Positions 2,131 through 7,935 of a stretch of 8,678 nucleotides of DNA are shown one piece after another. The stretch comes from Candidatus Nomurabacteria bacterium (GTDB taxonomy: Bacteria; Patescibacteriota; Minisyncoccia; Phycocordibacterales; Phycocordibacteraceae). The stretch is from positions 1 through 8,678 of the forward strand of contig CALRDY010000023.1 in NCBI GenBank assembly GCA_943355045.1, read 5' to 3'. The translations under genes were made by a program, and so were the position numbers. How positions within the stretch are numbered: the stretch's first letter is position 1; each line of letters starts with the position of its first letter. The notes beneath the pieces were generated by a model, which worked only from the letters and a program-made list of their open reading frames with translations, made no database searches and had not been told where the DNA came from.

Positions 2131-2769
2131 CTAGGCAGCTGGAGCTTCTGCCTCAGCCTCCTCCTTACCCTTCTTCTCGACTTCAATCGACGAGATGTCC
2201 GCCGCAGCGACCTCTACCTTCTCTTCAACGACTTCCTGCGCGAGCGCGACGATCTCTTCAGGCTCGACGGCGAGTTCTGTGCCGGCCGGGAGCACGACGT
2301 CTTTCGCATGAATCTTATTGCCGACCGCGACGAGCACCGAAAGGTCGACAGAGATATCGTGCGGGAGATTCATCGGGTCTGCCTTCACTTCGAGCTCGTG
2401 GAGCACCTTCACGAGGTTTGCGCCTGCCTTCACTGCTGGAGACTCGCCGACGAACACGAGAGGGATGGCGACCTGCACTTTCTTGCCCTTAGTCACGGCG
2501 TAGAAGTCGACATGGCGCGGGAGATTCGTAATAGGGTCGAGATCAACCTCATGAATGAGGGTCGGAAGCGGCTCGCCGAGACCCGCGAGCGAGACGATTG
2601 TAGCCTCGCCTGCCTCGCGCAATACCTTCTCGAAAGCGCGCACCGGAACCATGATCGGCGTCGACGCCTGGTGGGCACCGTAAACGACCGCCGGGATGAA
2701 ACCCGTACGGCGAAGCGCCGGCGCGCGAACGCCAGTCTTTTCGCGTTTCTCTACTGAAAGCGTAAGCAT
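2131..2769 (-). CDS. rplY: 50S ribosomal protein L25 (general stress protein CTC/TL5 type)
   Basis: The 212-aa product binds 5S rRNA in the central protuberance of the 50S subunit. It has the two-domain CTC/TL5 layout rather than the short E. coli form. The N-terminal L25 domain (about 1-95) shows GFIPAVVYG (23-31) and HVDFYAV (86-92). The C-terminal domain (about 97-180) has LHELEVKA, LPHDISVDLSVL and the closing LAVEPEEIVALA. An acidic Glu/Ala-rich tail (180-212) is probably disordered. The ATG at 2769 is chosen because the protein then starts MLTLSVEKRE as the family does. An in-frame ATG at 2790 would lie upstream of the -10 box. A good promoter ends nine bases before the ATG and no Shine-Dalgarno is present. 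It is divergent from the transposase gene, and the palindrome at 2813-2843 lies between their promoters. Confidence 0.93.
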   Translation of the reverse strand: MLTLSVEKREKTGVRAPALRRTGFIPAVVYGAHQASTPIMVPVRAFEKVLREAGEATIVSLAGLGEPLPTLIHEVDLDPITNLPRHVDFYAVTKGKKVQVAIPLVFVGESPAVKAGANLVKVLHELEVKADPMNLPHDISVDLSVLVAVGNKIHAKDVVLPAGTELAVEPEEIVALAQEVVEEKVEVAAADISSIEVEKKGKEEAEAEAPAA

Positions 2770-2778
2770 GATTTGCGC

Positions 2779-2807
2779 ACTATACCGCATCCATCTTCAC
2801 ATCGCAA
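2779..2807 (-). promoter_or_regulatory. Promoter of the L25 gene
   Basis: On the minus strand: -35 TTGCGA (2802-2807), 17 bp of spacer, -10 TATAGT (2779-2784). Transcription should begin at about 2771-2773, leaving only 2-4 nt before the ATG at 2769. Confidence 0.7.
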
Positions 2808-2812
2808 CAATC

Positions 2813-2843
2813 CCCATGTAGGACGTACGACGTCCTACATGGG
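2813..2843. repeat. REP-like palindrome, copy 1, in the transposase promoter
   Basis: The arm 2813-2826 pairs perfectly with 2830-2843 (14 bp) around the loop ACG. The core arm ATGTAGGACGT is shared with copies 2 and 3, and the outer CCC/GGG pairs are unique to this copy. It lies between the divergent L25 and transposase promoters and covers the position where the transposase -35 box would be (2824-2829). Confidence 0.93.
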
Positions 2844-2846
2844 TTA

Positions 2847-2852
2847 TATAAT
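2847..2852 (+). promoter_or_regulatory. -10 box of the transposase gene
   Basis: A consensus TATAAT ends directly against the ATG at 2853. Transcription would start at about 2858-2860, which coincides with the second in-frame ATG at 2859. There is no -35 consensus; that position falls inside the palindrome. Confidence 0.6.
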
Positions 2853-2858
2853 ATGTGT

Positions 2859-3533
2859 ATGCAGCTGTACCATGTGATTAATAAGGGAGTGGATGGGCGC
2901 GATATATTTCTAGATACGCAGGATTACGCGCGTTTTGTGCATGATCTTTATGAATTCAACGATGTCGCGCCAGCACTTGAATTTACTCGCGCCAATTCTC
3001 GTACTTTACATGTAGGACGTACGACGTCCTACATTCGTAAACAATTAGTCGAGATACATGGGTGGGTACTCGTGAAAAACCATTATCATCTCTTGCTGTC
3101 GGAACGCATTGAAGGCGGCCTCACTCTTTTTTTACGCAAGTTAAGTGGCTATGCAAGATATTTTAATGAACGGCATGAACGTCAAGGTACGTTATTCCAA
3201 GGACGCACCAAGAAGATTCTTATAGAGCGCCACGAACATTTCCTCTACATCCTTCATTACCTTCACTTAAATCCGCTCGACTATCTTCCGGGTGCGAAAA
3301 AATGGCGTGAACGTGACAAAGGAAGTATCCGAGATATTCCTGAAGTGCTTGAATATCTAAAAAAGTATCGTTGGAGCAGCTACCTCGATTATTGCAACAT
3401 ACCGAATTTTCCATCAATTCTCACTAAGAAATTTTTTGAACATTCTCTCGGAGCCGATTATCTTTCTATAATCGAGGAATATCTTGCGGAAAGGGCGGTA
3501 GAAGAAATTGATCCAAAATCACTCGAATATTAG
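2859..3533 (+). CDS. RAYT-type Y1/HUH transposase (IS200-like, REP-associated)
   Basis: This 224-aa product should be a single-strand DNA nicking and joining enzyme of the Y1 transposase family, of the kind linked to REP palindromes (RAYT). It opens with MQLYHVINKGVDGRDIF, the usual start. The metal-binding HUH motif is HYH in VKNHYHLLL (residues 75-77 from this start). The catalytic Tyr is expected in GYARYFNERHERQGTLFQGR (Y98 or Y101), followed by the typical YLHLNPLDY. Nothing looks truncated. The ATG at 2859 is preferred to the one at 2853 because TATAAT abuts 2853 and transcription would begin near 2859. A copy of the palindrome (3010-3034) lies inside the frame and encodes HVGRTTSY between the N-terminal strand and the HUH core. 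The gene is more AT-rich than its neighbours, which suggests transfer. There is no TnpB partner. It is convergent with aldolase. Confidence 0.9.
   Translation: MQLYHVINKGVDGRDIFLDTQDYARFVHDLYEFNDVAPALEFTRANSRTLHVGRTTSYIRKQLVEIHGWVLVKNHYHLLLSERIEGGLTLFLRKLSGYARYFNERHERQGTLFQGRTKKILIERHEHFLYILHYLHLNPLDYLPGAKKWRERDKGSIRDIPEVLEYLKKYRWSSYLDYCNIPNFPSILTKKFFEHSLGADYLSIIEEYLAERAVEEIDPKSLEY
3010..3034. repeat. REP-like palindrome, copy 2, inside the transposase gene
   Basis: The same 25-bp core as copy 1 and in the same orientation: arm ATGTAGGACGT (3010-3020), loop ACG, complementary arm 3024-3034. Flanking TTAC (3006-3009) and GTAA (3037-3040) could extend the stem with a small bulge. It is read in the transposase frame as HVGRTTSY plus the next codon, one of the two stop-free frames of the core on this strand. 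Confidence 0.93.
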
Positions 3534-3534
3534 C

Positions 3535-3577
3535 CCTATAATCATGTAGGACGTCGTACGTCCTACATGATTATAGG
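3535..3577. repeat. REP-like palindrome, copy 3, inverted, with a 20-bp stem
   Basis: The arm 3535-3554 pairs perfectly with 3558-3577 (20 bp) around the loop CGT. The loop is the complement of the ACG in copies 1 and 2, so this copy is in the opposite orientation. The 25-bp core is 3544-3568; the outer CCTATAATC/GATTATAGG pairs are unique to it. It starts just after the transposase TAG and includes the aldolase TAA (3571-3573), so it ends both convergent mRNAs. No T-run follows on either strand. Confidence 0.93.
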
Positions 3578-4563
3578 CGGGCGGCGGAGACTTTGGCGAG
3601 GCGGGCGAGGAAGGCGGCGCGGGCGGCGGGGGCATTCTCTTCCTTCCCTTTCCATATTGAAAGAGCTTCTTCCTGAAGAGCGCGAGCATAGGAAAACGTA
3701 AGCGGCCACGGAGCATTCAGCTCCTTCGCCTTACGCATTATCGCTGCGAGATTTGCGGTCGCCTCGTCCGGCGTCTGCCCGCCCGAAAGGAAGACGATAC
3801 CTGCCACCTGGCGCGGCACATTCGACATAAGTGCGGCGAGCGTGTCTTCCGCGATCTCTTCCGGCGTATCCTTCTTCCCGCTCTCGCTCCCCGCAAGCGC
3901 CATAGAGGTCTTCAAGATCACGCTCGCAGGGTCGACCGAGTGCTCCTCGAGCACGGAGAAGAGCGTACCGAGCACCTCTTCGAGCACTGTGCGAGAACGA
4001 GCGCGGCTATGCTTCCCTTCGAGAAGTACTTCCGGCTCTACAATCGGCACAAGGCCCGCGCTCTGCACTTCCTTCGCATAACTCGCGAGGCGCTTGGCAT
4101 TCTCATGTATCGCAGCCGAGGTGGGTAGTTGATCGCCGTCAATACGTATCGCCGCGCGCCACTTGGTAAAGACCGCCCCCTGCTTCTTGTACTCGGCGAG
4201 GCGCTCAGGAAGGTCGAGGAGGCCCTGTGTGATGAACTCGTGCGGGCTCGTGCTGATAGGCTCGGTGCCGAGATCGACTTTTACCCCGGGTGCTATGCCG
4301 CGCGCCGCGAGCGACTTCGGAAATAATTTCTTGTCGCTTCCCTTTTCGAGCAGCGTCTCAGAAAAAAGAATGATGCCGGAAAGATAGCGTTCGACACCTT
4401 CCGCACCGAAGAAGAGGTCCCGATACTGCCGGCGCATCTCGGCGCTCGTAGGGATGCCGTAGGACGCGAGGCGTGCGGTCGCAGTGTGCACGCTCTCATC
4501 GGCAGCGAGAATTCCCTTACCCTGAGCGAACAAAGAACGCGCGGTCGCGACGAGATCAGTCAT
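3571..4563 (-). CDS. Class I fructose-bisphosphate aldolase
   Basis: The 330-aa enzyme splits fructose 1,6-bisphosphate to dihydroxyacetone phosphate and glyceraldehyde 3-phosphate (or the reverse) in the cytoplasm through a Schiff base. It is the animal/plant-like class I type. Visible motifs are GKGILAADES (15-24), FTKWRAAIRID (132-142), VPIVEPEVLLEGKHSR (172-187), the Schiff-base Lys K218 in VILKTSMALAG, the phosphate-binding FLSGGQTPDEA (258-268), and LTFSYARALQEEAL (288-301). It is shorter than rabbit aldolase (363 aa) and ends without the C-terminal Tyr, as some bacterial members do. The ATG at 4563 follows an extended -10 by six bases. It is divergent from a PfkB kinase that may supply its substrate, with a long palindrome between them. 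Its stop codon lies inside palindrome copy 3. Confidence 0.94.
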   Translation of the reverse strand: MTDLVATARSLFAQGKGILAADESVHTATARLASYGIPTSAEMRRQYRDLFFGAEGVERYLSGIILFSETLLEKGSDKKLFPKSLAARGIAPGVKVDLGTEPISTSPHEFITQGLLDLPERLAEYKKQGAVFTKWRAAIRIDGDQLPTSAAIHENAKRLASYAKEVQSAGLVPIVEPEVLLEGKHSRARSRTVLEEVLGTLFSVLEEHSVDPASVILKTSMALAGSESGKKDTPEEIAEDTLAALMSNVPRQVAGIVFLSGGQTPDEATANLAAIMRKAKELNAPWPLTFSYARALQEEALSIWKGKEENAPAARAAFLARLAKVSAARL

Positions 4564-4580: not shown

Positions 4581-4693
4581 CACGCGAAACGCAGCCGGAC
4601 ATTTTGGAGCGTCCGGAGCGCGACGGCGCGAGGCAGAGCAAATTTCCAGCAGGAAATTATGCGGCTCCAAAATGTCCGGCCGCGTGAAGCGTG
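4581..4693. repeat. Long imperfect palindrome between divergent aldolase and kinase promoters
   Basis: A perfect 17-bp inverted repeat (GCCGGACATTTTGGAGC at 4594-4610, complement at 4664-4680) extends outward to 30 bp with four mismatches (4581-4610 against 4664-4693). Inside is a second hairpin, AATTTCC (4641-4647) with 4652-4658 around the loop AGCA, plus GC-rich unpaired sequence. Both ends of the palindrome reach the extended -10 boxes of the flanking divergent genes, so both -35 regions lie within it. It may be a shared operator or supercoil-sensitive cruciform, or an inserted palindromic repeat. Confidence 0.8.
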
Positions 4694-5695: not shown

Positions 5696-5723
5696 AAATT
5701 ACTTGGCGGTTTAACCGCCAAGT
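5694..5723 (-). terminator. Intrinsic terminator of the 55-aa membrane protein gene
   Basis: The stem ACTTGGCGG (5701-5709) pairs with 5715-5723 around TTTAA. On the minus strand it is followed by AATTTTTA, a short U-tract overlapping the kinase stop codon. It lies seven bases past the stop of the small minus-strand gene. On the + strand no T-run follows, though the hairpin could still protect the kinase mRNA end. Confidence 0.7.
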
Positions 5724-7790: not shown

Positions 7791-7796
7791 AGTATA
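7791..7796 (-). promoter_or_regulatory. -10 box of the transketolase operon
   Basis: The minus strand reads TATACT, six bases before the ATG at 7784, giving a transcript that starts at the ATG. Four of its six bases (TATA) belong to the terminal inverted repeat that begins at 7793, so the inverted-repeat element forms part of this promoter and all of the -35 region. Confidence 0.6.
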
Positions 7797-7935
7797 CCCG
7801 AACACTCACTTCGGCATTACTGTCTCATGTGTTTAACGCATCAGACAGTAATTGCGCGCCTTGAGCTAGGCACGTCCTTCATGCTCTCGTACCCACAGCA
7901 AAAAGGAAATATGCTGAAGTGAGTGTTCGGGTATA
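7793..7935. mobile_element. 143-bp MITE-like inverted-repeat element
   Basis: The ends are 25-bp inverted repeats with one mismatch (7793-7817 and 7911-7935; outer part TATACCCGAACACTCACTTC). The element starts TATA and ends TATA, so a TA target duplication, as for IS630/mariner-type elements, is possible but not proved. There is no ORF inside worth calling. It fills nearly the whole gap between the epimerase-like gene and transketolase and carries an inner hairpin (7816-7852). It could instead be a structured RNA or an inverted promoter duplication. Confidence 0.6.
7816..7852. repeat. Inner hairpin of the inverted-repeat element
   Basis: ATTACTGTCTCATG (7816-7829) pairs with 7839-7852 with one mismatch, loop 7830-7838 (TGTTTAACG or similar). 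It lies next to the left terminal repeat, leaving about 58 bases of unpaired sequence before the right repeat. No T-run follows on either strand. Confidence 0.75.

Follow-up and report, generated by a model that had tools for sequence, protein, structure and literature searches.

Why would a transposase gene carry, within its own reading frame, a copy of the palindrome that stands on either side of it? The question is raised by an 8,678-nt patescibacterial sequence (hereafter the window, meaning the whole stretch of DNA analysed), and its answer draws on relatives of the gene across many genomes. With a confidence that is evenly balanced, we propose that a RAYT gene is flanked here by two likely recognition palindromes and holds a third copy in frame, that the gene is probably a substrate of its own enzyme, and that the arrangement is self-limiting.

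A locus with three palindromes

When up to three mismatches are allowed, the pattern ATGTAGGACGTNNNACGTCCTACAT matches exactly three times in the window, with 0 mismatches each (2816-2840, 3010-3034 and 3544-3568), against a mean of 0.00 in 200 shuffled windows, so that the three identical 25-bp copies described in an earlier note, and the lack of any other in the window, are confirmed. The shared core of all three palindromes is ATGTAGGACGT-NNN-ACGTCCTACAT. The loop is ACG in the left and internal copies, and the right copy is the reverse complement with loop CGT; left and right palindromes are inverted and 100% complementary across 27 nt, in agreement with the opposite orientation claimed for the outer copies. 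The internal palindrome reads LHVGRTTSYIRK in frame, and the ORF stays open. The features of the locus are as follows.

2131..2790, minus strand: gene on the left, for ribosomal protein L25/TL5 (Pfam PF01386 and PF14693); a marker of the orthologous site
2813..2843 (core 2816-2840), plus strand: left palindrome with loop ACG and perfect arms of 14 bp; lies upstream of the transposase
2859..3533, plus strand: gene for a predicted HUH/Tyr transposase of the RAYT type; listed as an ORF of 226 codons from 2853
3010..3034, plus strand: internal palindrome, loop ACG; in frame, codes for HVGRTTSYI in a low-confidence model loop, residues 40-61
3535..3577 (core 3544-3568), plus strand: right palindrome, loop CGT, inverted relative to the left one, 20-bp perfect arms; overlaps the end of the aldolase ORF
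3571..4563, minus strand: gene on the right, for a class I fructose-bisphosphate aldolase (Pfam PF00274); a marker of the orthologous site

The transposase probably starts at 2859 rather than 2853, because homologous sequences mostly begin at MELYH. A search of its own assembly (452,166 bases, 51 contigs, 87.78% complete) found no 25-bp copy beyond these three, exact or with 3 mismatches; with 3 copies in total, a dispersed REP population is rejected for the assembled part of this genome. The earlier note would have abandoned its coupling of enzyme and palindrome if the core were absent elsewhere and not conserved beside homologous transposases: the core is indeed absent elsewhere in its own genome, but palindromes are conserved beside homologous transposases, so that only half of that condition applies.

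Other inverted repeats occur in the window. Directly after a pfkB-type kinase gene, a lone perfect palindrome, ACTTGGCGGT-TTA-ACCGCCAAGT, occupies 5701-5723; its arms are those of the palindrome of another RAYT clade (L032, genome G023), and it is the sole exact copy in the assembly, with 2 further places at 2 mismatches. At 7793-7935, between transketolase and pentulose-phosphate epimerase genes, two inverted arms of 25 bp are 96% complementary, are separated by 93 nt and enclose a further hairpin (7816-7852); the whole resembles a larger miniature element. Another pair of inverted arms, of 30 nt with 87% complementarity and a spacing of 53 nt, lies at 4581-4693 between the aldolase and pfkB genes.

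The encoded enzyme

The H-Y-H codons of the HUH motif lie at 3081-3089 and the likely catalytic tyrosine codon at 3258-3260 (YLHLNP). The corresponding residues His77, His79 and Tyr136 (numbering of the 226-aa ORF) are invariant across 33 aligned homologues, which were taken from the best 120 of 1965. NCBIfam returns a single match, NF047646 (REP-associated tyrosine transposase), at 28.6 bits and thus under the cut-off of 80, and neither the Pfam search nor the PDB sequence search gives a match. The AlphaFold model has a mean pLDDT of 66.7 and two stretches under pLDDT 50, the longer of which, residues 40-61, contains the palindrome-coded peptide. In Foldseek, the top PDB match of this model is 4er8 (E 8e-5), in which the RAYT of E. 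coli is in complex with a REP hairpin, followed by the IS608 and ISDra2 transposases. The protein is therefore predicted to be a RAYT-like (REP-associated HUH/Tyr) transposase, and the RAYT-type assignment of the earlier note is upheld by the sub-threshold family match together with the best fold match.

The genome holds one close copy of this transposase. Its nearest named loci are from Kaiserbacteria, in agreement with the CPR (patescibacterial) host group that had been proposed. Carriage by a virus was rejected, 53 candidate stretches in viral contigs having yielded 0 relatives.

The internal copy across relatives

Comparison was made over the window and 80 named loci, mainly from Kaiserbacteria and also covering Adler-, Wolfe-, Yanofsky-, Portnoy-, Nomura-, Lipton-, Uhrbacteria and others. 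By eye, most of the best 120 of 1965 homologues have a peptide encoded by a palindrome at this position (VGRTTSYI, SGRTTSRH, VGPQRSYI and the like). The transposase is thus not 'interrupted' by the palindrome, as had been suggested: the middle copy is in frame, and a comparable insert sits there in most of these homologues. A hairpin score of at least 8 is reached by the loop region in 56 of 81 loci vs 4 of 160 control windows taken from these genes, which rejects chance hairpins in RAYT genes as a source of the internal copy.

When decayed copies are counted (hairpin score of at least 8, or 18 of 23 positions shared with a flank), the internal copy is present in 69 of 79 loci (the window and 78 relatives); L121 (5' truncated) and L139 (a run of N) were excluded from this count, from the tree and from the synonymous recoding described below. 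Gains and losses of the copy on the tree add up to 13 or more changes. Ten loci are without it (L075, L080, L083, L091, L098, L117, L123, L125, L128 and L131), nine of which retain a flanking pair alike at 18 or more of 23 positions; L098 is scored as lacking the copy, though its remnant matches the flanks at 17 of 23. As far as sequence comparison goes, the internal palindrome is a clade trait, and the earlier note overlooked that this middle copy changes along with the flanking ones.

Internal and flanking copies change together

Covariation was tested over the window and all 80 named loci, the upstream flank being scored in 79 and the downstream flank in 76. The internal 23-mer matches its own upstream flank at a mean of 20.48 of 23 positions (at least 20 in 61 of 79 loci) vs 13.59 of 23 for the upstream flanks of other loci (at least 20 in 144 of 6320 pairs). 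Its own flank outdoes that of every other locus in 39 of 79 cases and lies above the 95th percentile of the others in 67 of 79. Permutation of upstream flanks never reaches the observed sum (0 of 10,000), in a test that retains the relatedness among loci. For the downstream flank, the corresponding counts are 54 of 76 own flanks vs 128 of 6080 pairs with other loci.

Among the 63 loci that have both flanks and in which one match or more reaches 19 of 23 positions, mean identities are 21.60 of 23 for internal-left, 21.27 for internal-right and 21.06 for left-right, where flank copies were chosen as best matches to the internal copy, a choice that favours the first two values. The flanks are alike at 22 or more of 23 positions in 37 of these 63 usable relatives. 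The internal arms fall into 33 clusters and change at least 41 times on the tree (69 tips). For example, L084 has an imperfect palindrome whose identical mismatches recur upstream (23 of 23). An exception is L087 (genome G116), where the internal copy matches the flanks at 16 and 19 of 23 positions, which counts against the reading proposed here. The E. coli rayT control gives a best flank-to-gene 23-mer match of 16 of 23, with 23 for flank-to-flank. This joint change of all three copies, seen in dozens of relatives, makes it likely that the enzyme targets the gene from which it is made.

Constraint acts on the nucleic acid

All three reading frames are represented: 40 loci have the central loop base of the palindrome at codon position 0, 14 have it at position 1 and a single locus at position 2. 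The frame of the palindrome changes at least 6 times on the tree. When the peptide of the loop region was recoded synonymously (200 recodings per locus), the real hairpin exceeded the recodings at p <= 0.01 in 53 and at p <= 0.05 in 61 of 79 unselected loci; in 55 loci picked for a strong hairpin, and hence a biased choice, 52 did so at p <= 0.01. Read from these alignments, the constraint on the loop acts on the nucleic acid and not on the peptide, because the match to the flanks persists despite wide divergence of the palindrome and differing frames. A peptide-level function of the loop is rejected on account of the three reading frames and of pairing above that of synonymous recodings.

Nucleotide-level palindromy that is kept whatever the reading frame, in a copy usually cognate to the flanks, would also suit autoregulation without cutting, in which the RAYT would attach to the internal hairpin of its gene or mRNA and thereby lower its own production. 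We regard this as improbable: the flanking hairpin that precedes the start codon directly could suffice for such control, and RNA binding by RAYTs goes unmentioned in the accessible parts of the RAYT literature consulted.

Other RAYT clades and a second RAYT in the same genome

Twenty-six loci of other RAYT clades, all within the same order, include 20 with matching flanks and 7 with an internal copy that matches a flank. In 12 of the 26, which form a sister group, the flanks match, the internal copy is absent and the protein is shorter, at 213-220 aa. L030 and L032 each have two internal copies, and L022 has one, at a second place; a copy at the first site alone is found in 73 of 105 tree rows (the 69 loci above and four loci of other clades). 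Across the wider phylum, sampled as 30 distant loci of which 7 had no ORF found, an internal copy occurs in 2 of 23 readable loci.

The second RAYT of the genome itself, L342 (contig 31, gene 755-1435), has, read by eye, in-frame internal copies at 939 and 1233 and flanking copies at 716, 1440 and 1486, all of another palindrome. Internal cognate copies thus occur at more than one place, as L030, L032, L022 and L342 attest. The internal copy appears dispensable for RAYT persistence, because the sister clade and nine of the ten loci without a copy keep matching flanks, a point against the proposed self-limitation. In L341 (G082, contig 32), a frame break follows the internal palindrome and the RAYT reads as two ORFs.

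One site, several states

The L25-aldolase neighbours were compared across 71 genomes. A RAYT in the orientation of the window occupies this site in 11 genomes (G101 being a fragment without the L25 end) and one in the opposite orientation in 5 (loci L157, L174, L175, L251 and L265 of G126, G116, G120, G008 and G050, respectively, with G008 and G050 as fragments without the aldolase end). The opposite orientation could reflect inversion between the flanking palindromes or a separate insertion. Single palindromes stand at the site in G038, G039 and G055, and these would be leftovers of a lost RAYT. Compact gaps of 19-52 bp without a palindrome detected by script are found in 24 of 71 genomes, although that of G044 looks by eye like a decayed one; apart from a left-internal remnant in G017, described below, the rest have other sequence or were not assigned to a state.

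An IS200/IS605-like element transposing as a unit through its hairpin ends, with an accidental middle copy, would account for the fold matches to the IS608 and ISDra2 transposases, for the up to 12 hits to the window protein in one genome (G047) and for the presence of the gene in both orientations at the L25-aldolase site. Such an element is nevertheless very improbable: 11 genomes have the gene at that same site in one orientation and 5 have it in the opposite one, its own genome has one close copy, and the middle copy is a clade trait. The idea of a unit moving as a whole, which the likeness to an IS200-like element in the earlier note suggests, is not supported: the site shared by many genomes argues for residence, which does not account for the two orientations found there.

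No more than two partial-deletion derivatives were found. At a site orthologous to that of the window, G017 has the left palindrome and residues 3-62, one palindrome and then immediately the aldolase flank, and is without the middle-to-right part of the locus. L121 begins at the internal palindrome, and its upstream translations contain no 5' gene part, so that the left-to-middle part is missing. Such losses would be predicted if an internal and an outer copy can pair up, via the enzyme or via ordinary recombination; RecA or slippage at the repeats could account for the absent segments, and the enzyme would not be required.

In the mechanism that we favour, the HUH/Tyr enzyme would recognise all three copies as single-stranded hairpins, and part of the gene would be deleted when the enzyme acts at the internal and outer copies or when these recombine with each other. 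Activity would therefore tend to end in loss of the enzyme, with palindromes staying behind, and this would give the internal copy a self-limiting role. Continuing turnover of the palindromes would keep the three copies alike, and the same activity may seed copies elsewhere, of which in-frame ones in surface loops would be tolerated.

Dispersed copies and host genes in relatives

A degenerate family pattern with 14 fixed bases, for which the control count is zero in every genome, occurs in 28 of 92 genus genomes. Among 58 same-genus genomes compared for a hit to the window protein (E <= 1e-3, any RAYT clade), the pattern is present in 20 of 35 with a hit and 0 of 23 without (Fisher p = 2e-6, relatedness uncorrected), in line with the earlier prediction that genomes lacking the transposase also lack the palindrome.

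Nine genomes with family-pattern palindromes both at a RAYT or remnant and dispersed were tallied by hand (G048 qualifies and was left out). In total, 16 of 45 dispersed copies equal the palindrome of the resident RAYT or remnant: 2 of 3 in G118, 3 of 4 in G126, 2 of 2 in G116, 4 of 9 in G050 and, for a remnant, 5 of 11 in G017. Four of the nine have no cognate dispersed copy (G112, 0 of 6; G120, 0 of 5; G039, 0 of 4; G121, 0 of 1). Three of the four copies in G039 are identical to the fourth, which is the lone palindrome of the L25-aldolase site. G000, G108 and G013 have no dispersed copy. The self-limitation reading has against it that the genome of the window is without dispersed cognate copies and that 4 of 9 tallied genomes are likewise without a match to the resident RAYT. 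Palindrome doublets, 28 bp from start to start (3-bp gap), are seen at L204 (G012), L298 (G116) and L227 (G042); some lie in open frames, and they resemble REPIN or BIME units.

Away from RAYT genes, 38 of 47 copies read in their sequence context lie in an open frame of at least 200 codons, which alone is no proof of a gene. Ten host proteins sent to NCBIfam, all from relatives and not from the window's own genome, carry the family palindrome in frame; their best matches are TrmD (2), AlaRS (2), Tgt, UvrC, HolB, PheT, DnaX and a TatD-family enzyme, and the curated cut-off is passed by 3 of 10 (one AlaRS, Tgt and the TatD-family enzyme). In the Tgt of G017, the insert region lies opposite a 13-residue gap in the solved Tgt 4hsh. 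Alignment of TrmD to PDB chains did not place the insert cleanly, and genus members were compared instead: a clear palindrome of the family type is present, by eye, in 3 of 11 TrmD loops. Across genomes the TrmD loop (L268-L297) appears as a common landing place, holding unlike palindromes in some and being short in others; its fillings include GC-rich palindromes in G005 and G033 and long hairpins in G118 and G126.

The strongest rival is a neutral one, in which family palindromes fall into many genes and survive in frame in flexible loops, so that the internal copy is a tolerated passenger without function and turnover keeps it like its flanks. We consider this possible, at well short of even confidence. 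It is favoured by the in-frame palindromes in 10 of 10 host proteins, by the variable filling of the TrmD loop and by the low model confidence of the RAYT loop, and such insertions have been read as possibly neutral (Quentin 2018, PMC6006769; De Nocera 2013, PMC3733652, both for the parts accessible). However, the loop is occupied in 69 of 79 RAYT loci vs 3 of 11 TrmD loops (by eye), hairpins are stronger than synonymous recoding would give in 53 of 79 unselected loci, and a second place in the gene carries internal copies in other RAYT clades.

A bolder version of self-limitation would make the internal palindrome a built-in off switch, the enzyme cutting its own gene and an active RAYT deleting itself and leaving palindromes, and would also make such enzymes the mover so far missing for RPE-like coding palindromes, placing their hairpin in frame in loops of essential proteins including TrmD, AlaRS and Tgt; this we think unlikely, if only a little more so than the neutral account.

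Relation to known systems

RAYT genes flanked by coevolving inverted REPs are described in the available text of Nunvar 2010 (PMC2817692). As far as the accessible parts of PMC2817692 and Corneloup 2021 (PMC8266576) go, RAYT/TnpAREP REPtrons share with the window an HUH/Tyr enzyme, two inverted coevolving flanking palindromes and a resident gene with no evidence of mobility. The locus has the HUH motif and single catalytic tyrosine in a Y1-transposase fold and the two inverted flanking palindromes of such systems; it is without many dispersed cognate palindromes, and its NF047646 score (28.6 bits) is below the cut-off of 80. Unlike REPtrons, the window has a third copy inside the gene and a genome without dispersed cognate copies, and in its relatives dispersed copies are often in open frames and no GTAG foot is conserved across loci. 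The earlier note held near-perfect palindromes to be atypical of REPs, but group 3 REPs are generally perfect according to the accessible part of PMC8266576. IS200/IS605 transposons share the HUH/Tyr fold and a hairpin-flanked gene with the window, which differs in showing no sign of unit movement and in its shared orthologous site.

In-frame REPs inside tnpAREP are given as a unique feature of subclass 2.4 (RAYT group 4), generally between HUH and Tyr, and this subclass is reported mainly from Cyanobacteria and Bacteroidetes (Quentin 2018, PMC6006769, accessible part). The window shares with it the in-frame REP in tnpAREP and a double-foot palindrome (GTAG...CTAC). Its palindrome, however, lies ~20 residues before HUH (over 54 measured loci, 19-29 residues separate the palindrome centre from the HUH motif that follows), and its motifs are NHYH and YLHLNP as opposed to the NH[IFV]H and YIxNNP of subclass 2.4. 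The window family instead has the motifs that the same source, in its accessible part, gives for subclass 2.1 (RAYT group 1), namely NHVH/NH[YF]H, FQ and YIELNP/Y[IV]HLNP: NH[YF]H is found in 75 of 80 proteins, Y[ILVM]H[LA]N in 74 of 80 and FQG or LQG in 67 of 80, by comparison of motifs. Subclass 2.1 is reported there without REP-like sequences, whereas palindromes flank and enter the gene in the window.

REPs in frame in replication and repair genes are described by De Nocera 2013 (PMC3733652, accessible part). Intragenic REPs and Rickettsia palindromic elements have in common with the present family short in-frame palindromes in genes, many of them for replication or repair (PMC3733652 and PMC10969869, accessible parts), and the same palindrome in frame in unrelated genes is seen in relatives of the window, not in its own genome. 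CGTC-type repeats, including RPE-4 and RPE-6, are reported without a dedicated transposase in the available text of PMC3733652, whereas palindromes of the same type accompany RAYT genes here.

The window differs from these known systems in the copy before HUH, in the subclass 2.1-like motifs and in the patescibacterial host. The words Parcubacteria and candidate phyla are absent from the main text of PMC6006769, and no report of REP-flanked or REP-containing enzymes in Patescibacteria is among the matches listed by searches of open-licence literature. Internal-flank covariation over a large clade and segment-wise natural derivatives do not appear in the accessible parts of PMC2817692, PMC6006769 and PMC3733652.

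Implications

The arrangement puts REP-flanked and REP-containing enzymes in a motif class reported as REP-less (PMC6006769, accessible part), and in Patescibacteria. Moreover, it offers a test of what moves in-frame palindromes in essential genes, a question left open for CGTC-type repeats, some Rickettsia elements among them, in the available text of PMC3733652. Finally, this is a large natural series in which transposase, flanking sites and in-gene site covary, from which enzyme-site specificity could be read in sequence.
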